Below, one piece after another: positions 8,091-34,412 of a DNA stretch of 64,000 bases; position 1 is the stretch's first letter, and the number at the start of each line of letters is the position of its first letter. Made by a program: the position numbers and the translations under genes. The stretch covers positions 1 through 64,000 of the forward strand of contig CAJBBX010000071.1 in the NCBI GenBank assembly GCA_903951425.1, written 5' to 3'. The notes beneath the pieces were generated by a model. That model saw only the letters and a program-made list of their open reading frames with translations. It searched no databases and was not told the origin of the DNA. This stretch comes from an uncultured Chthonomonas sp. (GTDB lineage: Bacteria; Armatimonadota; Chthonomonadetes; Chthonomonadales; CAJBBX01).

Positions 8091-9668
8091 ATGAAGTGGT
8101 GCCCCTTCTGCAAGCTGATTCTCACGAGCGTCGAGGGCGCTCAAGGCATCTCCACATGCTGCGGCTGTGGAGGCGCCTGGTTCGCCGCACCGGCCACGGC
8201 GAGCGGCGCTTCAGTAGCGCTCGCCGCTGTCAGCCCGCGGCAGTCCTCAGCCCCGCATGCAGCATCCTACGCCGGCCTGATGCAGGCCTGCCCGGTGTGT
8301 CCTGGCGCGACGCTGGTCGCCGACCCAGGGGTCGATCCACACTGCGCGAAGTGTGGCGGCACATGGCTCGACTACACCCGGCTCCTGGCGCTTGCTCCCG
8401 AACCCGTGACCGAGTCCGTGCCCGCCGAAGACCGTCCGCCCGCTGATCCGGGCGCGGCTTCTGGGCCTGCGCCGCCAGCCCCAGAAGCCCAGTTGCCTGA
8501 CGCCCGACCGCAACCCGCCGCCACCGGGACGCCGCCGATGCTATCTACCCCGGGTTCGATAGCGCCGAGGCCGGTGTTCCGGTACCCCGACCCTCCGGTC
8601 GACCCGTCCCTGCGCTCTGATCCTGACCGGGCCCTGGCCTGGCTCATGGAAGGAAACACACGGTACGCTGCAGACGCAGCATTGGGCCCGCGCCGGACTC
8701 CGCAGACGCGATCCCACACGGCCACAGGTCAGAAGCCGGTCGCAGTGGTCGTCACCTGCTCCGACTCGCGTGTGCCGGCGGAACTGATCTTCGACGTAGG
8801 GATCGGCGATATCTTCGTCATCCGGTCGGCAGGCCATGTCCTAGACCGAGTCGGCCTCGAGAGCATCAGCTATGCCCTGGAGCACCTGGAGGTCCGGTTG
8901 GTTCTGGTCCTGGGGCACTCGGCCTGCGGCGCCGTCCGGGCTGCGCTGTCGCCTGGAGGACCTCCGGCCGGCCTGGACAACCTGATGCGTGTGCTACGCC
9001 GAGCCACTGAATGGGCGACATCAGAAGGCGCCCCTGATGAGCAACGGACCATACGCCTCCACACGCTGGTGACTGCTGCCATCATCTGCAAGCATGTGCC
9101 GTCCCTCGCCCAGTCAGCCTCGCAGTCGCCCTGTGTGGTCGCCACCGCAGTGTACAACCTTGACACCGGGCTCGTCGAGATCGTACCGCATGAGGAGCCG
9201 CCGGCGCCCGCGCCCTCCGCGCCGGCCCCAAACCCTTCAGCACGACAGGCCCCGCGGTCGCGCCAGGGTCACAGTAACAAGCCCCCTGGGCAAAACGAAT
9301 CTGGCGACCGAAGCGCCTCCAACGCCGGGCAAGACCTGCAGTTCGCCGTGAGCTCTGGCTCCGAGCGATGGTGTACGCACTGCATGACTGCAGCGGGCGG
9401 GGACCAGGAGTTCTGCACCAGCTGTGGGCGCGGCTTGGTGGAGCCCTGGTTCAGGATCGTCTGCCCGAAGTGCCGTAAGGAGAACCTCATAGGCACGCCC
9501 CGGTGCTGGCAGTGCAACGCCGACCTGCACGCGGCGCCCACCACGCCCGCGCCGCCGGAGCTGCACGTTGGTCGCACTGCAAAGCGGACCGAGCCTTCAT
9601 GCACCGGCGTGATCGCCGCGTTCGCCGCAATGGCTGCGGCAATCAGAGTCATCCTCAGCAGTCAGTAG
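8091..9668 (+). CDS. Beta-carbonic anhydrase embedded between zinc-ribbon domains
   Basis: A 525-aa fusion. Residues 1-100 hold two zinc ribbons (C4/C7, C24/C26; C67/C70, C85/C88 with GGTWLDY). A Pro/Ala-rich linker runs to about 165. A beta-class carbonic anhydrase occupies about 175-370 with ligands C223, D225 (VVTCSDSRVP), H276 and C279 (LGHSACGAVRAAL). A second linker leads to four further CxxC knuckles (C428-C431, C442-C445, C458-C461, C472-C475) and a hydrophobic end (about 506-522) that could be a tail anchor. Free beta-carbonic anhydrases are about 200 aa. ATG 8091 follows GGGAGAG. It probably hydrates CO2, possibly in a complex or at a membrane. Confidence 0.8.
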   Translation: MKWCPFCKLILTSVEGAQGISTCCGCGGAWFAAPATASGASVALAAVSPRQSSAPHAASYAGLMQACPVCPGATLVADPGVDPHCAKCGGTWLDYTRLLALAPEPVTESVPAEDRPPADPGAASGPAPPAPEAQLPDARPQPAATGTPPMLSTPGSIAPRPVFRYPDPPVDPSLRSDPDRALAWLMEGNTRYAADAALGPRRTPQTRSHTATGQKPVAVVVTCSDSRVPAELIFDVGIGDIFVIRSAGHVLDRVGLESISYALEHLEVRLVLVLGHSACGAVRAALSPGGPPAGLDNLMRVLRRATEWATSEGAPDEQRTIRLHTLVTAAIICKHVPSLAQSASQSPCVVATAVYNLDTGLVEIVPHEEPPAPAPSAPAPNPSARQAPRSRQGHSNKPPGQNESGDRSASNAGQDLQFAVSSGSERWCTHCMTAAGGDQEFCTSCGRGLVEPWFRIVCPKCRKENLIGTPRCWQCNADLHAAPTTPAPPELHVGRTAKRTEPSCTGVIAAFAAMAAAIRVILSSQ

Positions 9669-11638
9669 CGGGTGGTGACCAGGTCCAGCATCACTCGGTG
9701 CTCGAACGTGGAGTACGACAGCATCACGTCCCGGCCACCCAGGCTCCGTGAGATGCCGACTTCCAGATCGCTGTAGTTCGCCGCAGCGAAGCGCTGGACC
9801 GTCGCATTGGTGTAGAGCCGCCACCGGCGCACAAACTGGTAGTCGGCTGACGCCACAAGCCCCGACTCAGCTGCGTCCAACGTGTAGTTGCCCAGAAGCG
9901 AGAGGCTGCTTCGTGACGAGTACGAACTGAGGCTCGCACTGGTCCGGTGGCTACCTCCGTACGAGGTACCGGCTCCCTGCTGCGAGTAGTCATAGGTCAA
10001 CTGCAGCGAGGCCCCGCTGCCCAGTACACGGGTCCCGATCAACGAGCCTACTGCTGACGCACCCGAGCGACCCTCGGAGGACCACTGGTGCCCCAGGGCC
10101 AACGAGTTGCTGACGCTCGTGACCCGATCAACTTGCCAAGGGCGGCTCATGAAGCGAGCCTGAAGCCCTCGCGTCGTGCTTGATGACCGGATCAGGTCAG
10201 ACGCCGTCGTCGTGGTGGAGAGGTTCGCACCCACAGCCATCATATATCCAGTCCGGCTCACCTTGACCGGCAACGTCTCCAAGTAGGCATCGCCCTGGCT
10301 TCCCGAAGTGGAGAGCCCGGTCAGGCTCCGGTTGGCGGATCCGCCAAGCCCCAATTGAAGCCCGCCGATGCGCTGCTGGAGCGTCCCTCCTCCATAGAGG
10401 CCCCGATGCTGGGGTAGGTCCATGTAGAGGCTCGTCCGCGTATCCGTTGAGAACTCCTGGCTATGGTTCCACCGCATACCCCAGTCGCCTCGGTTCGCCC
10501 CAAGGAGCGTGAACTCGCCCGTGTACCGACGACCGGCGCTGCTGTTCGTGTAGCTCCGCACCATATCCAGCGACCAGCCTCCGCGGCGAGCGTAGGACGT
10601 CTGCGTGGTCCGCTCGCCGTAGCGAACGCGGAACTGGCCCATGTCTGACGGCGTGAGGGAGTAGTAAAGCGGAACATCGATCCCAAACCCCTGCGAGCCC
10701 ACAGACAGGAACTGGTCGGTGAAGAGCATCCGCGAGGAGTACGACAGGGAGTAGAACGGAAGGCTGAACACCTGCTGACCGTCTTGGAAGAACCGTGGTC
10801 GAACGAACTGCAGTTTCTCGCCTGCGAAGTAGCGCACCTGTTTCGCCACGACGACCAGGCTAGCCTCGGAGAGGTCGACGAACTCGAAGCGTGCACCGGC
10901 GATACCGTTGGGTTCCGGCTCCGTTTTCAGGTCTGGGCCCGAGACCTTGACCGGGCTCCACCGAGCGCCCTGTTCTGCGATAGCGTAGCCCGTGCCGGTC
11001 GGAAGTACATACCAGAGGCTGCCACACTTGAGCTGCTTCCCGCCGCGCTTAACGACGACAGCGCCCTGGGCGCGCACCGTCATCGCCGCGCAGTCGAGTT
11101 GGGCCCGCATCGCCTCGATCGTGACAGCCCTGTACGTGATGGTGACGCCAGGCTTGCTCTCACGGCCTGCCTGACCGGACGTGGCCTCAATGGTCCTCTC
11201 TCCAACACTGTAGACCACAGACCCGCGTGCCTGTACGCGCACATAGGCATTGCCCTGGTAGGTCTCGGCAGGATCATCGGTGAAGGTGATGTCCGTCCGC
11301 TGGAAGCCGCCCCCAGGGACCGAAGCGGTCACGGTGGCGACGCCCTTCTGTTGGCTCGACACACGGACCCGTGCCGAGCCCGAACGGACCAGCGCTGACG
11401 CAGAGACGCCGGACTGAACAAAGACGCCGAGCGACGTGGTGAACGTCACGCGTGTGCCGTCAGGCAGGTAGCTCCCGTTGCTGTCGCGCACCTCCGCAAC
11501 GACCTCAATGTAGTCCCTACCGTCCGCCAGGGCCGCGGGCCGCATCGCTCTGAGGTCAATAGTCGGCGGACCGGCAACCGCCACTTGCGACAAGATCGCG
11601 GGTAGCAGTACCAGTGCAACGCGTCCAGATAACCGCAA
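9662..11638 (-). CDS. LptD/OstA-like outer-membrane barrel with N-terminal invasin-type Ig domain
   Basis: A 658-aa exported protein. After a signal peptide (about 1-22, ending AVA) comes an Ig-like domain of the intimin/invasin kind (about 30-110: VVAEVRDSNGSYLPDGTRVT, FTTSLG, GVATVTASVPGGG). An OstA-like stretch follows (about 115-320), with repeated AQGSVVYSV, IEATSGQAG and VRAQGAVVVKRGGKQLKCG. The rest is a long run of alternating amphipathic strands ending in the aromatic TTRY, as in outer-membrane barrels. The layout recalls LptD-type proteins, but homology is by eye. TTG 11638 is chosen: GGAG lies about eight bases upstream and the signal peptide starts there. The frame is open upstream but across a terminator. 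The stop overlaps the convergent carbonic anhydrase gene by seven bases. Confidence 0.6.
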   Translation of the reverse strand: MRLSGRVALVLLPAILSQVAVAGPPTIDLRAMRPAALADGRDYIEVVAEVRDSNGSYLPDGTRVTFTTSLGVFVQSGVSASALVRSGSARVRVSSQQKGVATVTASVPGGGFQRTDITFTDDPAETYQGNAYVRVQARGSVVYSVGERTIEATSGQAGRESKPGVTITYRAVTIEAMRAQLDCAAMTVRAQGAVVVKRGGKQLKCGSLWYVLPTGTGYAIAEQGARWSPVKVSGPDLKTEPEPNGIAGARFEFVDLSEASLVVVAKQVRYFAGEKLQFVRPRFFQDGQQVFSLPFYSLSYSSRMLFTDQFLSVGSQGFGIDVPLYYSLTPSDMGQFRVRYGERTTQTSYARRGGWSLDMVRSYTNSSAGRRYTGEFTLLGANRGDWGMRWNHSQEFSTDTRTSLYMDLPQHRGLYGGGTLQQRIGGLQLGLGGSANRSLTGLSTSGSQGDAYLETLPVKVSRTGYMMAVGANLSTTTTASDLIRSSSTTRGLQARFMSRPWQVDRVTSVSNSLALGHQWSSEGRSGASAVGSLIGTRVLGSGASLQLTYDYSQQGAGTSYGGSHRTSASLSSYSSRSSLSLLGNYTLDAAESGLVASADYQFVRRWRLYTNATVQRFAAANYSDLEVGISRSLGGRDVMLSYSTFEHRVMLDLVTTRY

Positions 11639-11660
11639 TGGGGAACTCCAGTACCTGTGC

Positions 11661-11688
11661 AAAAGGGGCGGGAGATGCTCCCGCCCCC
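11661..11688 (-). terminator. Rho-independent terminator or attenuator ahead of the LptD-like gene
   Basis: A 10-bp perfect stem (GGGGCGGGAG with CTCCCGCCCC; arms 11665-11674 and 11678-11687), a 3-nt loop, and TTTT on the minus strand (11661-11664). It lies between the small CsgG-like gene and the LptD-like gene. It ends about 22 bases before the TTG start, so it either ends the upstream transcript or attenuates the barrel gene. Confidence 0.75.
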
Positions 11689-11714
11689 AAACTATGATCT
11701 CAGGCCAGTGCCTT

Positions 11715-12494
11715 CTACGGCGGCGGTGGCGGATTGTCGATCCCGCCGCCCCCCCCGCCGCCGCCGGACAGGCCGAGGCCAACGCCCAGACCAACCGCCA
11801 GCAGGCCCCAAATCCAATCATTGCTACGACGCTTCTTGCGGTCCACCGTCTTCGGGGTGTTGTCCACCGGGACCGAGACAACGGCCACCGACGGAACCAA
11901 CTTGGCAAAGGCCTGTTCGCCCGTCGTCCGGGCAGCGTCCAGCGCCCGGTCCTCTTCCTTGGCGTTGCCGCCCTTGCCGCTCGACGCGGCCAGCGACACG
12001 GTCTTGGTGACCTTGCCAGTCTCGACTTCGATGAGCCGAGCGCTTAGCGTCACAGTGGCCACCCTATCTGCATCGGCGTATGAATAATCATCGACGGACG
12101 AGACACAGACTACGTCGTAGCCCGCGAGCCTACCCACCTTGAGGGCCTTCCGGTTGTCCTCTGAGAAGGGCGCCGTGACATCGGCATCGCCTAGCTGCCC
12201 GTCGTTCTTCAGGCGAACGACGGTGGGGGCGGCCTTGTGGAAGACGGTGACCGAGTAGGCCTTCGAGATGGCCAGTTTCGACGCCGCAATATCCGTTAGG
12301 AGGCCCGACACCTGCTCGCCGCCTGCCGACAGTGCGCTCGGTACATCCACCGGGAACACCATGACGGTCTTCTTGACGGCCAAGCCAATGGCCTTGCTGC
12401 CCGAAGCCTGGGCAACAGCGGAGCCGGCAAACGAGCCCAGCAACCCCGCCACTACCACAGGAACAAGCACGAGCCGACTTCTACCCAAGATCAT
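11715..12494 (-). CDS. Exported CsgG/LpoB-like protein with Gly-rich and polyproline tail
   Basis: A 259-aa protein. A signal peptide (about 1-28, AGSAVAQA) leads to an alpha/beta domain (about 40-190: VMVFPVDVP, LLTDIAASKLA, AGYDVVCVSSVDDYSY, VTLSARLIEVETGKVTKTVS) resembling the CsgG/LpoB fold used by periplasmic or outer-membrane lipoproteins. Near the end is a hydrophobic segment (IWGLLAVGLGVGLGL), then eight glycines and a final IDNPPPPP. No lipobox cysteine is seen. The upstream AGGAGGCGAGG site supports ATG 12494. It sits between the 2636-aa protein and the barrel gene. A second protein of this locus (26529-28457) ends in the same PPPPP. Confidence 0.55.
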   Translation of the reverse strand: MILGRSRLVLVPVVVAGLLGSFAGSAVAQASGSKAIGLAVKKTVMVFPVDVPSALSAGGEQVSGLLTDIAASKLAISKAYSVTVFHKAAPTVVRLKNDGQLGDADVTAPFSEDNRKALKVGRLAGYDVVCVSSVDDYSYADADRVATVTLSARLIEVETGKVTKTVSLAASSGKGGNAKEEDRALDAARTTGEQAFAKLVPSVAVVSVPVDNTPKTVDRKKRRSNDWIWGLLAVGLGVGLGLSGGGGGGGGIDNPPPPP

Positions 12495-12566
12495 CTTCTA
12501 CCTCGCCTCCTGGGGCCAGGAGGGGACCATCACGGCCCCCTCCCCTATCCAGACGCCGACCCGCAC

Positions 12567-15500
12567 CTAGCGGACCAGCACCACAGGCAGCACCGCAGTG
12601 GCGCTCCTGCCTCCATCGTCAGTGCCTGTCAGCTTCAGCAGGTAGCTACCCGCCGGGACCGCGATGCCGCGATTGTCGCGGGTATCCCACAGCAGGCTGT
12701 TCGCGCCCTGGGCTGCCGCCCGACCGCTGGACAAGGTCCGTACCACGGCACCTGTGGCGCTGACAATCTGCGCACGGACCGTAGCTTGGGCCGACATGCT
12801 GTAGGAGAAGGACATGCTTCCAGCCGCACGTCCCGTGTTGTGTACAGCCGAGATCAGCAGCGAGCTGTTCGCCGCCGCCTTCGACAGAACCAGGACGAAC
12901 TGCCTCGGAGCAGCCGTGGCCCCGGTGTTGTAGGTGTACGAGCCCGATTGAGCCAGCGACTTCCGGGCTCCGGTCGCCAGGTCTACCAGTGTAGCCTGAT
13001 ACCGGCGTCCGAGCGACGCCATACTCGGGAACTCAACCACCACATTGGCGTCGGCCACCGCTGTGGTCACGTCGAAGGCGTGGATCACGCCGGTTCCAGC
13101 CTGTAGGTCCGCAGGCATCTGGACGCTCTCGGTCGGAACGATGCTGACCACCGCATGCTCCGCCAAGTACGGCGGCTTCTCGACGTAGGCAGGCTTGGCG
13201 CCGGCGTCGAGCGGCAGGAAGTTGTCAGTGTCCATCGTCGCACCCAACCGAGCTATGACCTGAAGCGCATTGGCGGCTGCATTCACTACGGCCTGTGCAG
13301 ATGCTGCCTTCGTCGTCGGAGCCGGAAGCACCAGATCGCAGGACTTGACCGCCTTCACCCAGTAGCCGCGTCCCGACTTCAGCGCGCCGCCGGCCTGAAC
13401 CAGCACATAGCTTCCTGTCGCCGAGTTGAAGCCCCAAGCGTAGTTCCGAACGATCTCGCCCGCCTGGGCAATCGGCAGCGTCTGGCCTTGGTACTTGACC
13501 TGAACCGCCGACCATGCAATGTCCTGAAGGTAGACGGAGCCCACCATGTTCCAGCCAGCCGTCAGCGGAATGCTATACGCCTGCGACTGGCTCCAGAGCT
13601 TGCCGCGCGGGTTCAGCACAACGCCCTGGTTGGGCTTCGCCCAGTATGCCTGTCCGCCAGATGCGCGAACGTTGTCAGCGTACTGGTAGCCGCCAGTCGG
13701 CGCGATCACTGGGTTCCACACGGCCAAGTTCAGCGCCGTGATGGACAGCGGGGAGCCCGATGTGTCGGTTGCGCCGAACGTCAAGCTTGGATCCGGGGAG
13801 ACCGGAACCAGCGGCAGCGAGATGAGATCAAGCACATTGGCAGTCACGTTGACCGTCACGCCAATGACCTTGAACGGATACTCGGCTGTCGCCTTATCAT
13901 AGACGCCGGCCACGCCCGGCCACTCAACCTGGACCTTCCAGTCGCCTGTCTGGCCCAACGTTCCGGAAGTGTAGCTGAAGGCTCCGTCCGCCGCCGCAGT
14001 GGCGGACCCGGTGGTACCCGAACCATCAGACTCAACTAGCCGGACAGTCACCGGTGTCGGACCGACCACCGTGTTCGTGTCAAGCTTGGCAGTGAACGTG
14101 ACCGTACCACCCAGCGTAGCCGGAAGCGGTGCGAAGACCGGATTGACGTAGAACGCAGTGTTCAGCGTCGGGCCTCCAAGCGTGCTGTCCGCCGGCAGGG
14201 CGGACTCACCGGCGACGAGTGCATCCTGAGCCTTGAACTGGTAGGTATGGGACCGGGCGGTCTCATTGGCTGCGAACCGGTACTTGTACTGGTAGAGAAC
14301 ACCAGCCGAGTAGTCGGTTGCGGCGCCAACCCGCGTCATATCCTTCGCCACACCGTCAATCGCCACGCGAACGTACTGCGGGGCATTGCCGTCGGCATTG
14401 GCATACATAACCGAGAACGTAAAGTCGGTCGACGGAGGACCAGCAAGCGGAAGCAGCGTACCGGCTTCCGGAGACGATAGCCCCGCCTTTGCGTTGGCGA
14501 CCATGGGACCGCTATACGTGGTAGTAGCAGACGGTAGCGCTGTGGATGTGACACCGTCAGTGGTCTCGAAGCGATACGTATGGCCGCCGGCCTTGAGCGC
14601 AAAGGCAGCCGTCGTCACCGCGTACGTAATGCCTGCAGCGTAGTTGTACGGTGCAGAGCCAGCCGGCGCCAGCGCAAGCTTCTTCTCAGCGGCTGTACCG
14701 GGATCGATCAGCAACTGGATCGTCGACGGCGCAGTGTTGTCGAGATGCTTGTAGGCCACCGTGTATGTGTACCTGGTCGAGCGGGTGCCCTCAAGCGGGC
14801 TCAGCGTGCCGTTGTTATCGGCAGGATTGCCCGGCGTCGGCTCACTCAGGGTCGGGATGTTCGTGATCTTCAGCCCGCCGATAGTCCCCGACGTCGGGAT
14901 GCGGACCGTATCACCAGCTGTGGCATTTCCGTCATATGCCTCGAAGCTAAAGGTCAACTCGCCGGTCGGAGCGGGCTTGGCTATCACGTACTCATAGACC
15001 ACGCCAGATCCATAGTTCAGCGCGTCACCGGCCGTCGGCTGCATCGCAAGCGGTGCAGCCTGACCGGAAACCAACAACCGGACGTATCCATCTGCGGCAG
15101 GCGCCACAGCATCCTTGTCCCCGTACGTCACCCGGAAGGTGAAGTTGTGGTCCAGGTTCGCCACGATCGGAGGCGTCAGGAGACCGTTGGCGCCAACCGT
15201 ATGCGCGGTGGCGTCACCCTCTACGAACACCTGCACCGCTGCGAGGCTCGGAGCCCAGTTAACCTTCGGCCCTTGCAGAACCGTAGTCTCAGACGGCAGG
15301 TACGCGTCCGTCGTGGAGTCCGTGGTCTCGAAGCGGTAAGTGTGCTGGCCCTCGGGATTGTCCCCAGCAGCCGTCTTGTAGGAGTACAGGACACCCGCCA
15401 CATAGTCCACCGGACCTGCGGCCTCCGGTTGCATGGCGATGGTCCGCTCGGTAGCGGTACCAGGATCGATCTTGAGGCGCAGGTAGGTCGGCACAGCGCC

Positions 15501-20477: not shown

Positions 20478-20562
20478 ATGTAGCTCCCCCTCAACTCCTC
20501 GAGCTCAGTACCACGGCCCGCGCTGTGCGCCGCGCGTCCGGCGAGATGGCCTGCAACAGATA

Positions 20563-23238: not shown

Positions 23239-23261
23239 CAGATCGTCCTCCCTCAAGACCT

Positions 23262-23294
23262 GCGGCTCGGCCCAGATTGCCTAAACCGAGCCGC
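23262..23294 (-). repeat. Perfect inverted repeat in the leader of the 891-aa protein gene
   Basis: GCGGCTCGG (23262-23270) and CCGAGCCGC (23286-23294) form a 9-bp stem with a 15-nt loop, ending about ten bases before the ribosome-binding site. There is no T-run, so it is unlikely to be a simple terminator. It may stabilise the mRNA or modulate translation. Confidence 0.45.
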
Positions 23295-23388
23295 GGTCAC
23301 ACAGAACAGCCTCTTTGGACCTACCACCATCCCGGCCGACCTAGCAGACGTGGATCGCACCAATGGAGCGAGATCCCCGCCTGCGGAT

Positions 23389-26300
23389 CTACCGCACCAA
23401 CATGAACGGCTGCACCACGCGGACAGACCCGCCGTCGGCAGTGGCCGCCCGAACCTGAACCAAGTACGCGCCCGCAGGCACGCTACGACCTGCAGCGTCC
23501 TTGCCGGACCAGACCATGCGCTGGTCGCCGGCTGCGGCCGCCCGGGTTGCCACATTCGCCACCGGACGCCCGTCGGAACCCAGAATCTTGACCTCATACG
23601 TGGCGTCGCCCGCCATATTGAAGCCGATTGTGATAGCGCCGCTCGCTCGCCCTGCAGCCTGTCGAACCGTGAGGTTGGTTACCCGCGCCACGTTGGCGGT
23701 GGCAGGCGCCGCAGTAATGGTGTAGACACGCGGCGCACCGTCCGCCATGCTGCTGAACGAGAGGCTGGTGCGCGTTCGCATATCGGTCGTCGTCCCCGTC
23801 GCCTCGTCGCGAAGTGAGATGCGTCTGTTTCTCGGGAACGTGCCTTGCGGCGACCACGAGAGCGACACATTGCCGTCGCCCAGGTCCGACGCAATGGACA
23901 CCATCCAAGACTGCGTACCAGCAAGGCTGCGAATATCCCGAGCCAACGGCACCAACCCGTCAGCCCCGGAGACTGAGGCGGAGACGGTGCGGTCCGGCAT
24001 TGGCGGCTTGGGCGCATCGAGAGCATCGGCAGCGTCCCTCGCGACCGCCGACTGGCCGATGACGTTCGCTCCGTCTCTTGTGCCCTTTTGGCTCACAACC
24101 AGCTGCATCGCCCATCCGTCGCGGCCAAGTTGCATCGAGGCGGTCCTACCGGGCGCCAGAGCGTCAATGCGGACCGGCGGGACAACTAGAGCCACGTCCT
24201 GCTTGCTCCGGACACCAATCCAATGCCCCTGCCACGCCACGAGCGCACCGTCCGGAAGGGTCCGGAAGGAGTAGCCCTCAGTGCCGTCATACGTGTACAG
24301 GTTCGCCAGGATGTAGCCCTTCGTGACGGCGGAGCCTACCGGCATGCGGCCCTCAGGGGTATCCAAGAGCACGGCGTTCCACGGCACGCTGTAGGGGAAC
24401 GGGCAACCAACCATGTTCCAACTGATCGCCGAGGACGATGAACCAGTGCCCTTAAGCGGAATGACGAAGGACTTGCTCGTCAAGGCGACGCCATGGGTCA
24501 GCACGGGCTTGATCGATTCAACATCGGCCCAATACGCAAGGCCTACTGGGAACATGCCGACAGCAGAGCCATCCATATGCGGCACGGTGTCGGTCGGGTT
24601 GAATGAGGCGCCTGCCTCCTTCGTGCCATAGGCCGTGTAGACCGCATACTTCGACTCACCCGGCAACCAGCGCGCCAAGCGGAAGTCAGAGCCAAAGTAG
24701 GACTCCGGCGTGACTGCGTCCTGGTAGTAGGGGATCGAGATGAGGGTCCTGCCCTGGGTGATCTGATGCGGCCTGACCACAAAGTTGCGGAAGTCGGTGA
24801 CAACAAGGTCCGGCGGTCCGACCTTGGTGCCCTGGACATCCACGCGATTGTCACCGGGCGCCAGGTCCATGGTGGAGATCACCGCTTCGTAGCGGACTGG
24901 AACGGTGGCGCCGTTGGCATCCTTGACGCTATCCTGGATGTTCTCGACGGTCCAGTCGGTCACCGCCGTGCCGTTGATCTTAATGACCAGATTGGCCGGC
25001 CAAATCTGATTAACCGCCACACGAATGACGGGCCTCAGCGTCTCGATGGGATCAGGCTGCTGCCCAGTACTACCAGTAGCCGCCTTGCCCCCGGTGCCTT
25101 CGGGCTCGGTCACGGTAACGCCCACGCCGGCCTTAAGCAGGGCCGCATAGACGTCAATGATGCCATAGCCAACCTGTGGGCTCGGTACCGGATAGCCGGC
25201 TACGCGGGTGGCGGTGGACGTCAGGTACTCCTTGATCTCAGAGCCCTTAACACCCGGCAACGAAAGCAACAGCGCGACCGCACCGGTCACCTGCGGAGCA
25301 GCCATGGACGTTCCCTGCATCTCACCGTAGGTGCTGCCGGTAAGCGTGCTCAGGATCTCCTTGCCTGCGTGATCATCGCCGCCTGGAGCGGCTATCGTCG
25401 TGTACGGTCGGTACTCCGAGTAGTATGCCCATTTACCAAGATGGTTAGAGGCTCCGACACAGATGATGTTGGGGCTGAGTTGGGCGTTCACGGCAGGCCA
25501 CTTCGGCGGGTTGGCGCCGTCGCCGTCATTACCCGCCGAGACGCAGTAGACGGCGCCTGCCGCTGCATTCTTAAGCATAGTAAGTGTGAACGGTTCAGTG
25601 GCGTCCGGGGTGTCGCTCGGAGCATCCGAGCCCAAGCTCATGTTGATCACGTACTTCTTGTCTGGGTTCGCGGCCATGTGCTTGGCGACATACGCGCTAG
25701 ACTCAATGAGGGCGGCCGATGTCGAGCCCGCTGCGTCGCCCGCACAGATCGGCAGAAGCCAGACGTTATCCCACGCAATACCGCAGATGCCAACCGCGTT
25801 GTTGCCCTGAGCCGCAGCAATGCCGGCCACATGGGTTCCATGACTCGCAGCGGCGGCGACCGGGTTGCCATCGTCCACTAGCGTGGCGCTGTTGTATCCC
25901 TTGTACGTCCGCGAGGCAGGAAACTCGGGGTGGCTTGTCTGCACGCCTGAGTCCACGATGACGGCAACGACGCTCGCCTTGCCCTTCTCCATCGACCAGG
26001 CCTGCGGCATCTTAACTTGAACTTTGTCCCACTGCTCGCTATACCGGGGATCGTTGGGTGTTGCCGTACCGCCCGCTTGATCGTAGTAGACGATCCTGTT
26101 TGTGCCTGCGTACCGGACGATCGCTTTGGCCTTGAGGGCGTCGACCGCCGCCAGCGTCGCGGCGTCCGTTACGTTCTGGCCAGATATGCGCAGGTAGTGC
26201 GCGTCGATCGAACCTGCGATATCGATGGACGCCCAGCTGCGCACCACGGCAGCTCCAACGCCGTCGGCAAGCGCGGACACCTGGGCCTCAGACGTGCCGT

Positions 26301-26436: not shown

Positions 26437-26528
26437 ATGCTATGGCTCCTGTAACTCGTTGCACTATGAGGGCGTCCAGCGTGTCCACCGGCCGCCCTCC
26501 TAGACGTCACCCACGCGTCGCCGTTTGC

Positions 26529-28457
26529 CTACGGAGGCGGCGGCGGCATATCAGCAGGAGTGAAGCTCCTGATGCCAGTGTATACCCATCGGTAGGTCCG
26601 ATCGCCGTTTCCGGCACTGGAGGTGATCCAGTCCACGGGCCCTGGGCGATCGGCGTCATTGCGTGCGCCGATGCGCCAGTAGAGTGTCGGCTTGGCCGAT
26701 CCAGTCACACGGTTGACGTAGTTGGCAAACGTCGCATCCCTCTTGAGGGCATCGAGGGCTGTCAGGTCGACCGACGCCGGCAGGTTCTGTGTAACGCCTT
26801 GGGTCATCACAGCCGTGGAGTAGACTACCGGCAACTGAACGAGTACCGTCTTGTTCTTGAAGGACCTGTCGGTTGAGACCTCGACGACAAAGACATCCGC
26901 GCCACGAGTGCTGTTCCAGGCCGGGTTGAACTTCGCCAGGTCAACGTTCACAGCCATGTCCTGGGGCGAGCTTAGGATCGACGGGATGACCGGGGTCACC
27001 TGACCGCTGCGAACCGGTTCGGTGCTGACGTCCTCGGTCTCGGTGGTGCCGCCGGTCCCGTTGTTGTTATTGTTGTTAGATGTACTCGTGCTGACCGGGC
27101 GACGGATGATCGCGTTCACACCGTAGTTGTAGCTGTTGCCCGGCGTGAAGCCAGGGACCGCACCCGCATCCGGTGTCACTACCTCAGACTCACCGGCGCC
27201 GCCATTGTTGTTGGTGCCGCTGCCTCCGGTGGCAGCCTGACGGAACCCCTTCGTACCATCCCAGTATGACCAGGGGCTGGCGAGGTCCGTGTAGATGAAG
27301 CCGGTTAGAGCCGCAACCGGGGTGCCCTGGAAGTTGTAGCCATAGTCGGGCTCACGCCAAATCTGATGTTCAAGCGTTGTCGAACCCCACATGTTGTCGC
27401 GATAGGTAACCCTCACTGCCGCGGCGCCGTTGAGCGTGGTGGCCTCAGCGACGACTGCAGTGGTTGTAGAGTTCTTTCCGCCCGCTACCGCCGCAACCAC
27501 TACGCCACCAACCAGCAGCACAACCAAGAGCTTACCAAGAGCCGCGACCGACGAACCGCCATTGCTGGGGGTCTTGCGGGTGACAGCCTTGAAACCTGCG
27601 ACGTTGGGGAAGTCCGGCATCGGGAAGATGGCCCGCACCTTATCCTCGGGACGAATGCCGAGGGTGTTCTCCAGAACCTTCGCCTCAGAATCGGTCGCAT
27701 ACACGGCCGTGACGGCGATTTTGCCTACGCGCTGGCGGTCGCGGAGGACCAGCATCTGCATGCCCTCACCGACGCCGTCGCGGCTACCCTTGTTCACAAG
27801 GATGCCGAGATCGGTACCGACGCGACCATTGCCAACCGAGCTGATGATCGTCCCCTCGGGCAGGACGGTCTGGAGGATCTGCTTTACCGCCAGGTTCGCT
27901 GCGTTGTTTGCTGCTTCCTGTGCGAGTTCATCCGTGTCGGTGACGCCGGCCCTGGCATACGCTACGCCGATTTGGGCAGCGCCGCTTGTCAACTGGCCCG
28001 ACGACGCTTCAAGTATGCTGACCTTCAGCCAGACACTGACGCACTTCGGTCCGGTCTTCGGACCGGGCTTAACCGCTACAATCTCGCCGGTGACGATCCC
28101 GGTGGCGCTGAGCGCGCTCGCCAGCTTCGACATGGCCACCATGTCGTAGGGCTTCTTCAGGTTGAGGTCCCGAGCCTGGCGGTCGACCTCATCCCGTCGC
28201 AGGGGATCGAAGCGGGCGGAGTTGCCCAGCTCAACCGCAACGGCGTCGGTAGCGGTGCGGGCGAGTAGCTCACCGGGCACGCCCGACTTGTTGGCGAAGT
28301 CAACCACGACCACTGTCTGCATTCCGCCCGTAGCCGACGCGGACTGCGCGAACGCAGCCTGCGGGCGCAAGGACTGGCAGACAAGCGGCGTGATCATGGC
28401 GACCGTTAGCAGCCAGCCTATGATGCGGGCAGCCCTGCTCTTCCTGATCCGTTTCAC
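26529..28457 (-). CDS. Exported CsgG/FlgT-like protein with polyproline end
   Basis: A 642-aa protein. A signal peptide (about 1-38, AAFAQSAS) precedes a CsgG-like domain (VVVVDFANKSGVPGELLARTA, about 45-200). A FlgT-C-like beta domain follows (about 205-290: LGILVNKGSRDGVGEGMQM, GKIAVTAVYATDSEAKVL). A hydrophobic segment (LLVVLLVGGVVVAAVAGG, about 315-335) could span a membrane. The C-terminal part has fibronectin-like strands and an Asn/Gly-rich linker, and ends ADMPPPPP, echoing the tail of the 259-aa protein. The start is GTG 28457 behind GGGAGGA. The role may be an outer-membrane or periplasmic assembly factor; this is an inference. Confidence 0.6.
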   Translation of the reverse strand: MKRIRKSRAARIIGWLLTVAMITPLVCQSLRPQAAFAQSASATGGMQTVVVVDFANKSGVPGELLARTATDAVAVELGNSARFDPLRRDEVDRQARDLNLKKPYDMVAMSKLASALSATGIVTGEIVAVKPGPKTGPKCVSVWLKVSILEASSGQLTSGAAQIGVAYARAGVTDTDELAQEAANNAANLAVKQILQTVLPEGTIISSVGNGRVGTDLGILVNKGSRDGVGEGMQMLVLRDRQRVGKIAVTAVYATDSEAKVLENTLGIRPEDKVRAIFPMPDFPNVAGFKAVTRKTPSNGGSSVAALGKLLVVLLVGGVVVAAVAGGKNSTTTAVVAEATTLNGAAAVRVTYRDNMWGSTTLEHQIWREPDYGYNFQGTPVAALTGFIYTDLASPWSYWDGTKGFRQAATGGSGTNNNGGAGESEVVTPDAGAVPGFTPGNSYNYGVNAIIRRPVSTSTSNNNNNNGTGGTTETEDVSTEPVRSGQVTPVIPSILSSPQDMAVNVDLAKFNPAWNSTRGADVFVVEVSTDRSFKNKTVLVQLPVVYSTAVMTQGVTQNLPASVDLTALDALKRDATFANYVNRVTGSAKPTLYWRIGARNDADRPGPVDWITSSAGNGDRTYRWVYTGIRSFTPADMPPPPP

Positions 28458-28540
28458 TCTGAGAGTTCCTCCCTCGGTGGCGATGCGCGCCGCTCAGGCT
28501 GTCGGTCCGCCCAACGTCGGCGCCTGGCCTCCGCGCTACC

Positions 28541-28555
28541 CTGTCACTCTGACAG
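28541..28555. promoter_or_regulatory. Perfect short palindrome, possible operator
   Basis: CTGTCA-CTC-TGACAG is a 6-bp inverted repeat with a 3-base spacer in the 190-bp gap before the CsgG/FlgT-like gene. It could be a dimeric regulator site. A short palindrome can occur by chance. Confidence 0.25.
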
Positions 28556-28647
28556 CACCAACACCGCTGTACGCTGCGGTTGCGTCCTATTACCGGAAAC
28601 CCTGAAGGGGCCACGCTACGCTACGCATCGCGTAGCCCCTACCGGTT

Positions 28648-31600
28648 TTACCTTGTAACGACCAACGATGCGACACCTCGGACCGATTGGCCGTCCGACG
28701 ATTTTGCCCTAACCTCAATCAGGTAGGAGCCCGCAGGAGCGGCAATGCCCTTGGCATCCCGCAGATCCCACGTCGCCTGGTTCACGCCCGCAGCCCTGGT
28801 GGCGGCGCCACCGAGGTTCCGCAGCAATGCACCCGACGATGACAGCACGCGCACCTCGACAGCCGCAGTACCCGAGAGCGAGTACTGGATCGCGGCGGCG
28901 GTGCTTCGGCCGGCCTGCCGGGCCGCAAGACCCGTCAGCCTCAGTGTGGCGGCAGTGGCCGGGCTGACACGGACCTCGAACTGCCTAATGGCAGCCTCGT
29001 CAGCACCCGTCCAGGAGTAGCCACTGCTGCTGCGCATGTCGCGCACCGTACTCGTAGCGACGTCTACCAGGGTGAACTGGAGGTCCTTGCGGACCGATGC
29101 CAGACCTGGCCAAGCCAGGTTCACCTGACCTGCGCAACCTGCGGTCCGAACCGAGAACGCCCACGTCCGGGGGCCGCCGGAGGCGTTACGAACATCCACG
29201 CCGTAGGAGCCTGACTTGTCGCCCCAGTCCGAATGATCGAATGCTGCGTAGGCGTAGCTGGAACCGAAGACCGGCGGCTTCTCGACCTTGAAGGCGTCGT
29301 AGCCGGCCTTGGCGCTCGTGGCCTCGCCCAAGAAGTTATCCGTATCGTTAGCGCCCGTAGCGGTGACCGCCAGGTTCAGCACCCATCCGGCGCTACCGTT
29401 AAGGATCCTGCCGGCAGGAGCGGTACCGGCAGCCGGCTTGGCAGACACCGGCGGCGGAACGAGCAACGTGATGCTGCGGTAGGCCCGCACCCAGTAGCCC
29501 CGCCACGGAGACAGCCGGTACTCGAGGACATAGCTGCCGCTCATGTAGCCGTAGAGGGCAGCGCCCAGGGCTCCTGTGGCGATCGCCTCGGCGTAGGTCT
29601 TGGTGGCGCCGGCGTCGATGATCGACGTGCGGGTCCAGTCGACCTCAGCCGTGAACGGTGCGCCGACGAGGTTCCAGCCCGGGTTCAGGTTGATGCTGAA
29701 CGGGCGTGTGGTATCCGCCTTGGCGCCCTCAGTGGCAAGCGGGATGTTGGACTTGTAGCTCATGAAGTAACCGCGGCCCAGGGTGATGGATGCCGCATCC
29801 GCATTCGGATACAGGGCGTACTTCCCAAGCGACCAGGTGGCCAACAGGAACTGACCGTTCGTGCGATCGGACGCCGGGATACTCAGCAACTCGCCGGGAT
29901 CGACAGCCTGGTAGTTGTACGGCATCGACATCAGCGAGAGGGCCGCCGGGAATGTGTAGAGCGGCTGCATCGCGAAGTTGATGCTCTTCGTCTCGGTCTG
30001 CGTCGTCACTGCCGCGTTCCGGAACGCAGGCACGGTAGTGAAGCCGGTCAGGGTCGCAGTAACCTTGTAGGTCACCCCGGCCGGAACGTCCGTGATCCGG
30101 TAGTTGTACCGGTAGCCGGTTGCGTCCGTAGAGGTGGCACCGGTGACCGCAGTCGCGAGTTTGTTACCCGCGGTGTCCGTGAGATCGATCGTGACGCCGG
30201 CCAGCGGCGCCGCATCCGACGTGCGGGTGACAAGGCCGGAGACCATGCCAGGCGCTACCGTCTTGAGGAGGATGTCCTCGACGGTGGTCGCGGCGTTAGA
30301 TGAAACAGCGGCAGTCACGGCCGTATTGGCCTGGAAGCCGGGCGCCGTGGCGACGACCGACCATGAACCTGCGTCCAGACCGTTCGGCGTTGCATTAGCC
30401 TTGTCGAACGAGTAGGCGCCTTGCGCGTCGGTAACGGCCGTTACGGCCTGGGCGCCCAGGGTCGCCGTGACCGTCGCTCCGGCGATCGGCGTCTTATCCG
30501 AATCCTTGAGTACTCGGCCCGTCGCTGAGCCCTGTTCGGCCTTGAGCTTGAAGTCGAAGCCCGTGTACGTCTTCGCCGGCTGGACCGTGGTGTCGGCGTC
30601 ATCAGACTTCGGGACGCTGTAGCTCACTGGAACGCTGGCTCCGTAGCCGGTTGCAACGCAGGTCAGCGTGTACTTGGTCTGCGACGGTACATTGGTGATC
30701 GTGTAGGCGCCATTGACATCGGACGTCGCAGTGAGCGTTGCGCCGCCCGGCAGGACATCGACCGCAGTCACCACCGCGCCGACCACGGGCGTCGTGCCAT
30801 CCGTACGGAGCACCGTGCCGCTGATGACTGCCGGCTGGGCTGCCGTCATTCGGAAGCTCACCATGTTGCGTGTGCTGCCGTGGACCACCGTCGACGAGGG
30901 CTTCTGGATCGTGTAGCCCGCCTTCACCGCCGTGATGTCATACCCGCCGGTCTCCACACCGTTGAACTGGAAGCCACCGTCGGGCCCGGTAAGCGCCGTG
31001 TACTCGGTCACAGGCCTGCCGGCCGAGTTCGTGCGGCAGGTGAGGCGCACCAGAACGTTCTCGATGGGCCGACCAGCGCCCTCGAGGTCGAGTACGTTAC
31101 CGGTCACGATGCCTGTCCGGAACCAGCATAGAGTGTTGTGGAACAGCTCCGAGCGCCGGTTCTTGAGCAACACGACCGTCGGGTTCGTGTTCGGTACCGA
31201 GAAGTAGTCCGGGTAGAGGGCTTCAATGCCCATCGGGCAGTAGACCAGCCGAGAGCCCGTCGTCGTGTCCTTGTGGTAGAGCACGGCCGCGTTGCCATTG
31301 GCGTAGGTGAGTACGTTGATGGCTCCGCCGGCAGGGCGGACCTCGTCGGGATACAGGTTGCTCGGTGCGCCGAACAGCTTCGGGTTATTGGTGTCGTTGC
31401 CACCCGCGACGAGGTTTACGTCTCGGGAGATGTAGTCCGCGTTGCCGGGCGGGATCGGCGGTCCAGGATACTGGTGGCCACGAACCGACAGATAGGTCCC
31501 CGGCCGGTTCTCCCACGGGTCGTGGCTGATCGGGTTGTAGGTGCCTGCGCCGGTCAGGGCGTAGTTGCCGGAGATGCGGAACAGGCCGAAGACGAAGCCC

Positions 31601-34275
31601 AAGCGCAGACCGCCACCACTGGCAGCGCTGGGGAAGTCGCGGACGTAGGTGGCATGCAGTGTGTTGGTGAGGAAGTCGCTGCTGACAGCGCCGTCTAGCG
31701 TCATCGCCCAGCCCAGGTCCTGGCCATTGACCAGCATGCGGCCGCCGGCCTTCATGAAGGACGATATCTGGGTCTGCACCGACAAGTCAAGAATGGAGCC
31801 GGGGCCCACAAAAATGTTGCCGGTGAAGGGTGCGTGCCAGAAGACCGCGCGCTCGGCGACCGTCACCGTCCGGGGCGTCGTCTCGCCGGCGATCGTATCC
31901 GCCGGCTGCTGCTCGACGCGAGGCAGATACTGCTGCAGGACGCTGTCAGTCACTGCGCCACGGCAGAGGATGCGCCAGAGGTCGTACTGCTGGGTGACAG
32001 GCACATCGACGCCGTCGGCCATGGAGCCGTCCTGAACCGAGCCGTCCGAGTTCCACGCAGAGTAGTTGTCGGTGGGATCGTAGGCGCCGTAGGACTTAAC
32101 ACCCAGGGCATTGAGGATATTGCCCAGCGGGCCGGCACCGCTGTCGGTGGACCAGGTGGTGGGCCGGAGGAGCCGAACGTCAATGTCGGTCATCCAGCTC
32201 TCGGTGCCCCAGAAGGTGTGATAGACGTTGTCGAGCACCTGGGTCCCATAGCGCGAGCTGAAGAACTTCTGGCCGGCCGCATGGTCACTGACAAAGAGCA
32301 GGCCGTGCGACGGCTGGAATGCCGCTGTGGAGAAACCCCAGATGTTGTCGTAAATCTTCCAGTTGATCGCATCGTTGGTGAACGGGTCCACCGCGTTGTC
32401 GTACGCGACGACGTCGATCATGTAGTCCGACGGGTTCAAGGCGTCAGATGTCCATGTTGCGGAATAGGTGCAGACACCGGTGACGGCATCACGTGACTCA
32501 AGCTTCAGCGGCAACCAGCCCTCATCGGCCGGGCTCATCGCGCCACTGAAGGCGTAGAAGTCGTCAACGCTCGTCAGGTAGGTTGGGTTGGCGTAGGTGT
32601 TGACGCGGGCGTCTGCTGGATCGGATCCGACAAATACCCGCTGAGACTCATACTCATACGGTAGCCCGTTCCAGCGCGTCGTGCCATCCGAGGAGGGGTT
32701 CCCGCGATAGTAGACTTTGTGCTCCACGCCATCGGCGGACTGGTACTTGCTGTTCGGGTTCTTAATCTGGATGTAAGCATCGCGAATGCCGGTCTCAAGG
32801 TCGACCAGCTTCACGCTGAACTTCACGGTCGAGCCGGGGCCGGATAGCCGCGGGTTGATGTTCACGATCTCGCCGGAGGACTCGTCGAACCGCACCAGGG
32901 TAGGCGCGTTGAAGTCGAGAAGCGTCGATGAGAAGATGTCTGTGGGCGTCAACGCACTTGGCGCCGGCGGCTGTGACGTCTCAGATACGGAGTCGAAGCC
33001 GGTGCGGTTGGTCTGGTAGGCGACGCGATAGGTGGCGATGAACTGAGGCCAGGTCACATGGCGGTCGTCGTAGATATGGCCGGGATCGCCGGTCGGCAGC
33101 TTGTAGGCCGGGTTGAGCGTCGTCTCCGGCGTGAGGACCGTGTATGCAGGGCTGGTGGGGTCGGTGGGATCGATCCCCAGATCGACCTTAAGCCAGTAGA
33201 CGTCGCTCGTGCCGTTCCCTGATATGGCATCCGGAAGGCCGTCGTTCTTCGTGTCTACGCGATTGCTGGAAAATGCGAGGAGCTGCTGGCCACCCACGTA
33301 ACCGCCGTAGTTTGCGTCGGGCTTGTTGGTGCTCCAAGCCGGCTCAATGTTGCTCGAGGCAACAGAACCCGCAGAGAAGTTGGTAACCCGACGGGCGGCG
33401 ATGTTCGGAGTGGTCGGAATGACCCAGATATCCCGGTTGGACTTAACTGTGCCTCCATCCGCCGTGGCCCGATTCGAGTCGAAGGCGATGATGGAGTTGG
33501 CCTGAGTCGTCCCGGTAGAAGGGCTGAGGGACGGGTTGCGGTCGTCTGATATGCCCTGGGTGATCTGCGTCACAACGCCGGACTGGGTATCTACGACGTA
33601 GAGCTTGTACGGAGCAGTGGCGCTGGCCTTGCCGGCGAAGATCACAGCCGAGTTGAGGCCGGGCCACGCGCCGTATTCAGGTCCGTTCAGCGCGACAAAG
33701 CTGAAGCCGCTGGGGTTGTTGCTCAGGATAGCCTTGCTGGCCCGCGTCTCCAGGTTGAGTTCCACCAAGTCTTGCGTACCGGCGGCGGTGGTCTCAATGT
33801 ACATGACCGTGGAGGCGCCAAGGCTCACCGCGACCTCGGATTGCGAAGTCGTCAGACCTACCTTGACCGCAGACGTAGCGAGCGGGCCTGTGATGGCCGT
33901 GATGCCCGTGCCGTCCGGGTTCATTCGATAGATGTGCGAGAGCGTCCCAGCCGTATCGCCCGACAGGGTGGCCCGGTTGGAGTGGAAGAGGATGTACCTC
34001 TCATCTCGCGTCCAGTAGGGCGCCCCGTCAACGACGGTGGCTGTCTGGGGCGTCAGGTCCACGGTTCGGGGTGTTGCGCCAGAGGCGCGCGTCTTCCGCA
34101 GCGGCTTCCGCGCTACCGAGGCGGGCATCGGCGCCCTGGAATCCGTGAAGGGCGTGCCCTGACGCGCCACACTGGTTCCCGCGAGTTGCGCCCTAGCAGT
34201 GAGCGTGGAGGCGGATAGAAGCAGAGGAGACGCCAGTGCGACCAAGCATAGATGGGTCAGCCTCACTCGTTTCAA
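28648..34275 (-). CDS. Exported TolB-propeller / carboxypeptidase-regulatory multi-domain protein
   Basis: An 1875-aa protein. Signal peptide about 1-31 (LTARAQ). A TolB-like propeller (about 70-400) carries four SNR-type repeats: ILFHSNRATL, IAFDSNRATA, LAFSSNRVDT, AYQTNRTG. A long middle region includes FVSDHAAGQKFFSSRYG and MLVNGQDLGWAM, which resembles a glutamine-amidotransferase-like fold. Four carboxypeptidase regulatory-like domains (about 1055-1430) follow: VTGNVLDLEG, ISGTVLRTDG, ATGRVLKDSD, VSGLVTRTSD. The end is the shared module: NPGWNLVGAPF, WRGYWVRAYRS, DTDNFLGEA, VEKPP and a FlgD-like Ig domain ending SLVVTR. TTG 34275 follows AAGGAGGT by ten bases; the frame extends to 34560 but lacks a site there. 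Confidence 0.75.
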   Translation of the reverse strand: MKRVRLTHLCLVALASPLLLSASTLTARAQLAGTSVARQGTPFTDSRAPMPASVARKPLRKTRASGATPRTVDLTPQTATVVDGAPYWTRDERYILFHSNRATLSGDTAGTLSHIYRMNPDGTGITAITGPLATSAVKVGLTTSQSEVAVSLGASTVMYIETTAAGTQDLVELNLETRASKAILSNNPSGFSFVALNGPEYGAWPGLNSAVIFAGKASATAPYKLYVVDTQSGVVTQITQGISDDRNPSLSPSTGTTQANSIIAFDSNRATADGGTVKSNRDIWVIPTTPNIAARRVTNFSAGSVASSNIEPAWSTNKPDANYGGYVGGQQLLAFSSNRVDTKNDGLPDAISGNGTSDVYWLKVDLGIDPTDPTSPAYTVLTPETTLNPAYKLPTGDPGHIYDDRHVTWPQFIATYRVAYQTNRTGFDSVSETSQPPAPSALTPTDIFSSTLLDFNAPTLVRFDESSGEIVNINPRLSGPGSTVKFSVKLVDLETGIRDAYIQIKNPNSKYQSADGVEHKVYYRGNPSSDGTTRWNGLPYEYESQRVFVGSDPADARVNTYANPTYLTSVDDFYAFSGAMSPADEGWLPLKLESRDAVTGVCTYSATWTSDALNPSDYMIDVVAYDNAVDPFTNDAINWKIYDNIWGFSTAAFQPSHGLLFVSDHAAGQKFFSSRYGTQVLDNVYHTFWGTESWMTDIDVRLLRPTTWSTDSGAGPLGNILNALGVKSYGAYDPTDNYSAWNSDGSVQDGSMADGVDVPVTQQYDLWRILCRGAVTDSVLQQYLPRVEQQPADTIAGETTPRTVTVAERAVFWHAPFTGNIFVGPGSILDLSVQTQISSFMKAGGRMLVNGQDLGWAMTLDGAVSSDFLTNTLHATYVRDFPSAASGGGLRLGFVFGLFRISGNYALTGAGTYNPISHDPWENRPGTYLSVRGHQYPGPPIPPGNADYISRDVNLVAGGNDTNNPKLFGAPSNLYPDEVRPAGGAINVLTYANGNAAVLYHKDTTTGSRLVYCPMGIEALYPDYFSVPNTNPTVVLLKNRRSELFHNTLCWFRTGIVTGNVLDLEGAGRPIENVLVRLTCRTNSAGRPVTEYTALTGPDGGFQFNGVETGGYDITAVKAGYTIQKPSSTVVHGSTRNMVSFRMTAAQPAVISGTVLRTDGTTPVVGAVVTAVDVLPGGATLTATSDVNGAYTITNVPSQTKYTLTCVATGYGASVPVSYSVPKSDDADTTVQPAKTYTGFDFKLKAEQGSATGRVLKDSDKTPIAGATVTATLGAQAVTAVTDAQGAYSFDKANATPNGLDAGSWSVVATAPGFQANTAVTAAVSSNAATTVEDILLKTVAPGMVSGLVTRTSDAAPLAGVTIDLTDTAGNKLATAVTGATSTDATGYRYNYRITDVPAGVTYKVTATLTGFTTVPAFRNAAVTTQTETKSINFAMQPLYTFPAALSLMSMPYNYQAVDPGELLSIPASDRTNGQFLLATWSLGKYALYPNADAASITLGRGYFMSYKSNIPLATEGAKADTTRPFSINLNPGWNLVGAPFTAEVDWTRTSIIDAGATKTYAEAIATGALGAALYGYMSGSYVLEYRLSPWRGYWVRAYRSITLLVPPPVSAKPAAGTAPAGRILNGSAGWVLNLAVTATGANDTDNFLGEATSAKAGYDAFKVEKPPVFGSSYAYAAFDHSDWGDKSGSYGVDVRNASGGPRTWAFSVRTAGCAGQVNLAWPGLASVRKDLQFTLVDVATSTVRDMRSSSGYSWTGADEAAIRQFEVRVSPATAATLRLTGLAARQAGRSTAAAIQYSLSGTAAVEVRVLSSSGALLRNLGGAATRAAGVNQATWDLRDAKGIAAPAGSYLIEVRAKSSDGQSVRGVASLVVTR

Positions 34276-34383: not shown

Positions 34384-34412
34384 ATTATAGCATACGGCCC
34401 AAGGGGGCGCAA
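34384..34412 (-). promoter_or_regulatory. Sigma-70-type promoter of the envelope locus
   Basis: On the minus strand TTGCGC (34407-34412), a 17-base spacer and a perfect TATAAT (34384-34389). The start of transcription would fall near 34377, leaving a leader of about 100 nt before TTG 34275. It is the only strong promoter-like element found ahead of the seven-gene minus-strand locus. Confidence 0.65.

Follow-up and report, generated by a model that had tools for sequence, protein, structure and literature searches.

A strongly diverged LptD homologue encoded among large exported proteins in a gene cluster conserved across Armatimonadota

Introduction

The barrel protein LptD, the lipopolysaccharide (LPS) translocon, and its partner LptE are the closest described counterparts of the system considered here. 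A 2026 review, in its accessible sections, calls LptD universal in diderms (PMC13067283), and some LptD is therefore to be expected in the Armatimonadota, which carry LPS genes according to the available parts of three papers (PMC5007114, PMC4072686, PMC5629042). We analyzed a 64,000-nucleotide stretch of DNA (hereafter the window; positions 1 to 64,000 of contig CAJBBX010000071.1, assembly GCA_903951425.1) from an uncultured Chthonomonas sp. of this phylum. Between 9662 and 34275, the minus strand of the window holds seven genes with export-type N-termini, which from the first to the last transcribed are P0007, P0006, P0005, P0004, P0003, P0002 and P0001 (stop at 9662). We report that P0001 is a strongly diverged LptD homologue with an extra invasin-type immunoglobulin (Ig) domain in front, and that the seven genes form a real unit that recurs through the phylum, complete or partial.

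Published accounts of the last step of LPS transport in diderm Terrabacteria disagree. In the accessible text of the respective papers, a 2016 study found no clear LptD or LptE in diderm Firmicutes (PMC5007114), and a 2022 study states that lptD and lptE were never found in the ‘atypical diderms’, namely Cyanobacteria, Deinococcus-Thermus and diderm Firmicutes (PMC8871954). The latter study asks how LPS crosses in atypical diderms, and its available part does not name the Armatimonadetes; the available part of the former names LPS genes of Armatimonadetes, LptD not being among them. A literature search, outside which most subscription papers lay, returned no account of the P0001 gene or its operon. 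The identity, form and setting of LptD in Armatimonadota appear to be new, its existence as such being expected. An original prediction, made from the letters alone, had proposed that the seven genes may form a new surface-assembly or secretion system.

Results

P0001 and LptD

P0001 and its recognizable parts lie in the window as follows.

9662–11662, minus strand: P0001, LptD homologue with signal peptide, Big_1 Ig domain, OstA jellyroll, outer-membrane beta-barrel and terminal Tyr (profiles and structural model)
11279–11560, minus strand: Big_1 Ig-like domain of P0001 (PF02369, residues 35–128)
10985–11152, minus strand: OstA/LptA-like part of P0001 (hhalign against ten LptDs, E 5.4e-7 alone)
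10427–10867, minus strand: connector and first barrel strands of P0001, corresponding to E. coli LptD 177–329 (hhalign E 8.9e-8 alone)

An outer-membrane barrel with an OstA/LptD-like part had been predicted here, and hhalign and Foldseek both bear this out. We compared a profile of 26 P0001 sequences, trimmed of the Ig domain, with a profile of ten LptDs, consisting of E. coli LptD and nine sequences from plasmid records that are 18–33% identical to it (the Azospirillum record L219 was omitted because it holds no usable LptD open reading frame (ORF)). The two profiles matched with a probability of 97.8, an E-value of 6.6e-13 and a score of 111.4, the hhalign E-values given here being those of single comparisons. 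Among the controls, 100 column-permuted LptD alignments scored at most 22.5, 16 single E. coli proteins at most 23.6, the reversed P0001 profile 21.3, 50 permuted P0001 profiles at most 22.4, a profile of eight TonB receptors 21.6, and five other cluster families together with the C-terminal module described below at most 20.0 against LptD. Six alpha-proteobacterial LptDs without the others still matched P0001 with an E-value of 4.2e-9. Taken separately, neither the Ig domain nor the final barrel segment gave an LptD match in hhalign. When the 26-sequence profile was searched against the PDB, E. coli YhbN (LptA, 2r19) was found at 9.2e-5 and LptD at just 0.21. In Pfam, the window copy reaches the cut-off with its N-terminal Big_1 domain only, and weak LptD_N matches were seen in six of the 26 relatives.

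The structure of P0001 alone was predicted, as the original prediction had suggested (predicted local distance difference test score, pLDDT, 77), and compared with the PDB by Foldseek. All of the 15 best matches are LptD, at 7e-15 to 5e-11; FimD ushers come next, at 2e-7. Given this ranking and the profile controls, we rejected the possibility that P0001 is a generic barrel of the TonB or usher type. The order of parts is that of LptD, with an OstA jellyroll followed by a barrel, an aligned connector and first strands, and a C-terminal aromatic residue (F, Y or W is the last residue in 26/26 P0001 proteins), and the Chthonomonas genome encodes one full copy. E. coli LptD has four conserved disulphide cysteines, a feature in which LptDs vary; P0001 has two partly kept cysteine columns (19/26 and 7/26). 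Unlike LptD, P0001 carries the Big_1 domain at its N-terminus, stays below the cut-off of the Pfam LptD family (PF04453) and shares a putative operon with genes for large exported proteins. The model shows about 21–22 predicted strands from residue 325, whereas E. coli LptD has 26 (accessible part of PMC13067283). The Big_1 domain itself resembles that of invasin/intimin (Z 15.0 across 92 residues against invasin 1cwv) but is fused ahead of an LptD-type protein.

LPS genes alongside P0001

Because the barrel is a diverged LptD, LPS export would be its simplest function, and we examined the LPS genes that accompany it. The Chthonomonas genome (6.08 Mb in 188 contigs) has LpxC, LptF/G twice and no Pfam-recognized LptD. 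On its contig C4, a row reads LptC-like, LptA-like (an OstA-domain gene), LptB and LptF/G, in which the LptC and LptB labels are ours, from sequence and position. LptF/G and an OstA gene elsewhere in the genome are a further feature in common with LptD. Among 30 genomes tested, LptF/G is present in 30 and LpxC in 28, and all 23 tested genomes with P0001 carry both. The two genomes without LpxC, G184 and G187, are also without detected P0001; both belong to one genus, and both are small (1.5 Mb), with a completeness of 97%. No P0001, P0002, P0004, P0007 or C-terminal module was found in the examined 73% of G184, where a P0006-like protein is encoded after coaE and a subtilase-like protein at another place.

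Conservation and gene order in the phylum

With an E-value of 0.001 as threshold, P0001 was detected in 244 of the 251 genomes of the phylum, and by count from the result table 239 genomes match at 1e-20 or better; the weaker matches (G010, G014, G088, G096, G117) may be to the Ig domain only. P0006 is present in 35/41 genomes, the Chthonomonas genome counted. To compare gene order we used the stretches around P0006 from 23 relatives. As far as the contigs extend, families f1, f2, f3 and f6 have the order P0007-P0006-P0005-P0004-(P0003)-P0002-P0001, P0003 being missing in f2, f3 and G008. In G032, G034, G037 and G039, some cluster members only are found near P0006, and in family f14 (L129, L148) the cluster is reduced to P0006, one module-bearing protein and P0001. 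Conserved synteny had been named as a check by the original prediction, and the gene order is indeed largely kept across the phylum.

A second comparison was centered on P0001. It comprised 47 distinct loci (27 + 20), 27 of them from a contig scan with P0001-specific patterns, whose matches, where their titles name a lineage, were of Armatimonadota type, which is no proof of absence elsewhere. We counted the 44 loci with at least 700 bp of upstream DNA (L077, L096 and L098 were excluded because theirs was too short). P0002 lies directly upstream of P0001 on the same strand in 38 of these, and in 42 at least one cluster partner lies upstream on that strand.

These data bear on the possibility that the locus is a neighborhood without joint function, in which an LptD-type gene and unrelated surface genes happen to share a stable region. 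Such a region could be suspected because the cluster adjoins housekeeping genes in the window (polA, an S1-domain gene resembling rpsA, and coaE, all upstream of it), because P0003 and P0005 come and go among families, and because in G031 (f4) and G036 (f9) the genes P0007-P0006-P0005-P0004 are followed by ~15–17 kb without P0001, which is on another contig. However, the genes downstream of P0001 change by family while the cluster itself is retained, and the upstream partners keep to the same strand in nearly all loci. We consider a mere neighborhood unlikely and favor a conserved operon.

P0002 and P0006

Two of the proteins had been described as CsgG-like.

11715–12494, minus strand: P0002, exported, non-lipidated relative of the LpoB/CsgG/LptE-type fold, found before the LptD homologue in 38/44 loci
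26529–28457, minus strand: P0006, FlgT-like, with a TolB-N/LpoB-type domain, a small beta-barrel, an Ig/fibronectin type III (FnIII)-like part and a PPPPP end (Foldseek, VIA)

The alpha/beta core fold of P0006 is indeed shared with CsgG, and that of P0002 by relation, because the P0002 profile and the P0006 N-domain profile each retrieve members of the other; neither protein reaches the Pfam cut-off for CsgG (12.5 of 20.8 bits for P0002, and no listed match for P0006). When the P0006 model alone (pLDDT 62, with many parts past residue 280 below 50) was examined by Foldseek, CsgG was among the matches, but the best was FlgT (3w1e, E 2.4e-12), the fold of whose middle and C-terminal domains P0006 shares, and PelC, LpoB and TolB were among the others. 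VIA aligned P0006 with CsgG, whose pore is formed by membrane-spanning hairpins, over the core only (residues ~45–200; about 140 of 206 CsgG residues), and the N-domain with PelC (Z 12.9, 131 residues) and with the LptE homologue 3bf2 (Z 9.4). The Pfam models of FlgT match P0006 weakly, and PDB sequence searches with both proteins were uninformative, PelC being among weak, non-significant hits of P0002. We conclude that both proteins belong to a wider LpoB/PelC/TolB-N/FlgT fold group. The idea that they are CsgG pores was dropped given the sub-cut-off Pfam scores, the core-only alignment and the missing lipobox (0/20 P0002 proteins, and neither protein of the window); no curli family reached its Pfam cut-off in any of the seven proteins.

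FlgT is part of the flagellar H-ring of Vibrio. In both FlgT and P0006, a small beta-barrel comes after a TolB-N/CsgG-type domain; P0006 differs in its additional Ig/FnIII-like parts and PPPPP end, and none of the seven genes was identified as encoding flagellar machinery. The P0006-like gene kept in G184 indicates that the FlgT-like gene can persist after the barrel is lost. On contig C6 of G184 (172864–176662; L174–L193 and L160), in a lineage with 31% guanine plus cytosine, a gene that reads as flagellin-like lies just downstream of the FlgT-like gene. Short stand-alone relatives of the P0006 N-terminus occur outside the cluster in G004 (L116:8707–9501) and G005 (L117:5635–6441). Both P0002 (11718–11732) and P0006 (26532–26546) end in PPPPP, and proline-rich ends are found in many, though not all, relatives.

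For P0002, the Pfam family most often matched is LptE (PF04390; 7/20, best 0.0012, below cut-off), and 16 more distant P0002 proteins matched LpoB in three cases and LptE in one. Its position beside P0001 and its fold group make it the likeliest candidate for an LptD partner, in the place of LptE; unlike LptE, it is not a lipoprotein. Family f8 has a tandem pair of P0002 genes ahead of the LptD homologue (L140:15235–16819, L147:5651–7271).

An outer-membrane barrel with a small partner of the CsgG fold is also reminiscent of PelB/PelC, the barrel here being LptD-like. P0001 could accordingly be imagined to export another glycolipid or a polysaccharide in the PelB/PelC manner, with P0002 as a PelC-like ring, a view to which the PelC similarities of P0006 and P0002 and the persistence of LptF/G in both LpxC-less genomes lend something. 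LpxC is present in every tested genome that has P0001, however, and the PelB barrel is absent among the 50 Foldseek matches listed for P0001, an absence that by itself excludes nothing. We hold this to be very improbable, the least probable of the alternatives considered, and retain LPS as the likely cargo.

Proteins with a shared C-terminal module

The remaining four proteins of the cluster share a C-terminal module.

28648–34275, minus strand: P0007, 1875 aa, first gene, carboxypeptidase-regulatory-like domains and module (PF13620 in four stretches, FlgD_ig)
28651–29982, minus strand: module in P0007
23389–26436, minus strand: P0005, subtilase with shared C-terminal module (PF00082, E 1.1e-40)
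23392–24786, minus strand: module in P0005
20563–23256, minus strand: P0004, 897 aa, with shared C-terminal module
20566–21903, minus strand: module in P0004
12567–20477, minus strand: P0003, 2636 aa, with shared C-terminal module; absent in some families
12570–13880, minus strand: module in P0003

The module is ~430 residues long and terminates in FlgD_ig and a final Arg. It occurs in six proteins of the Chthonomonas genome, four of them in the cluster; the other two (contig C97:11989–13302, L112, and C163:42701–44068, L113, in ORFs of 1868 and 1101 aa) have no relative of P0001, P0002 or P0006 within 20 kb. In G031 (contig C20, L118), a 1140-aa protein with a P0006-like N-terminus adjoins two module proteins in a second, expanded locus. 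The complete subtilase of the original prediction holds up: PF00082 is present, and the triad Asp162/His199/Ser377 is intact in 19/20 aligned sequences, the window copy being one of them. From their N-termini and domain types, P0003, P0004, P0005 and P0007 are probably surface-coat proteins.

Several exported proteins that end in one Ig-bearing module resemble type 9 substrates, whereas the models of the type 9 secretion system score well under their cut-off (13.9 of 420 bits; no search was made for machinery genes such as SprA, PorV and PorU). The locus might, then, be a dedicated secretion or surface-assembly system, in which the LptD-like barrel exports or displays the module proteins and P0005 is the processing protease. 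The synteny of the cluster, the rarity of the module and the fact that the intact protease itself bears the module fit such a system. Yet the closest relatives of P0001 carry LPS, P0001 stands without cluster proteins at L142 and L143 and is kept where the module matches are partial (P0004 and P0005 of f19, L139, and f8, L140; P0004 of f35, L137), and the sole LpxC-less genomes found are also without P0001. We regard a dedicated system as very unlikely. A new system, as first proposed, is not needed to account for a barrel whose closest relatives are LptDs, and LPS translocation by P0001 is the reading we keep.

Layout and transcription signals

All seven ORFs were found at the positions given by the original prediction, and a simple hydropathy and motif check, for which no signal-peptide predictor was used, showed a hydrophobic N-terminal stretch in 7/7 proteins and a lipobox in none. 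The predicted spacing of 72–190 bp is correct for five gaps (190, 92, 132, 85 and 72 bp). Counted from the TTG at 11662, the last gap, between P0002 and P0001, would measure ~52 bp; the P0001 ORF remains open to 11908, which makes the real start codon uncertain. The start of P0007 was taken as the TTG at 34275, which is preceded by GGAGG. A promoter had been proposed ahead of it.

34384–34412, minus strand: candidate promoter with extended −10 element (TTGCGC, 17 nt, TATAAT; TGnTATAAT match)

Its extended −10 element, TGCTATAAT at 34392–34384, is the sole TGnTATAAT in the 64 kb on both strands. The −35 element, TTGCGC, is weak (3/6 consensus bases, 17-nt spacer), and a consensus promoter scan did not list the site. 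In the same kind of scan, promoter- and terminator-like sites of the region were no more numerous than in shuffles, and a repeat search of the region gave nothing informative. The convergent neighbor at 8091–9668 on the plus strand encodes a carbonic anhydrase domain and zinc-ribbon motifs and overlaps the stop of P0001 by 7 bp. A tRNA-Pro called by ARAGORN at 22514–22592 on the plus strand, antisense within P0004, has no Rfam match and is probably false.

Discussion

We interpret the locus as a conserved outer-membrane operon in which a diverged LptD is packaged with envelope and surface proteins and P0001 serves as the LPS translocon, and we estimate the probability of this reading at roughly 0.7. 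P0001 would take LPS from Lpt machinery encoded elsewhere and insert it into the outer leaflet, with P0002, beside it, acting in the place of LptE. P0006 would probably act as a FlgT-type scaffold in the envelope, and P0007, P0005, P0004 and P0003 are probably proteins of a surface coat with a common C-terminal module, P0005 retaining the residues expected of an active protease. Their co-expression could let the cell build the LPS leaflet and the protein coat together.

The following points weigh against this interpretation. In sequence, the C-terminal part of the P0001 barrel does not match LptD (E 0.019), and a lone E. coli LptD sequence reaches just 24.4 with the trimmed P0001 profile and 31.7 with the Ig domain, where controls reach 23.6, so that the homology is visible only with an LptD profile and like-for-like profile controls matter. 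The Foldseek template-modelling (TM) scores of P0001 against LptD are low (0.25–0.34), and rigid VIA alignment ranks LptD and TonB receptors equally, at a Z of ~13; the fold alone would therefore not decide, and it is the sequence profiles that do. PF04453 is above its cut-off in none of the 251 genomes, with three weak matches in the phylum of which the two examined (L149, L150) are not P0001, although this cut-off is a detection rule and not a defining trait. Since G184 and G187 share a genus, the co-loss of LpxC and P0001 counts as one event. Five other genomes without detected P0001 have LpxC; G028 is 74% and G218 59% complete, G081 is in 1060 and G144 in 750 contigs, and G048, at 93% completeness, is unexplained, the members G034 and G072 of its family matching P0001 moderately (~1e-41 to 1e-43). 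As for P0002, DUF3280, LpoB and CsgG (5/20 each) and FlgT_M (4/20) match it about as well as LptE, and P0002 and E. coli LptE, when compared directly, did not match. Finally, P0001 occurs without any cluster partner in L142 and L143, and apart from the cluster in G031 and G036, which means that P0001 does not depend on the coat proteins.

One may go further and suppose that LPS export and coat assembly are one machine, in which P0002 plugs P0001 and the module fastens the giant proteins to the emerging LPS or passes the translocon. We regard this extension as doubtful and quite unlikely.

The analysis names a specific diverged LptD for a whole phylum in which Pfam recognizes none. P0001 may have been easily missed because of its Ig fusion and, in the Chthonomonas genome, because it is encoded away from the lpt genes and among genes for large exported proteins. 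P0002 offers a testable partner in a group, the diderm Terrabacteria, said in the accessible part of one paper to lack outer-membrane lipoproteins (PMC11784454). Whether the coat proteins and the LPS gate cooperate is, to us, the interesting question that the locus raises.

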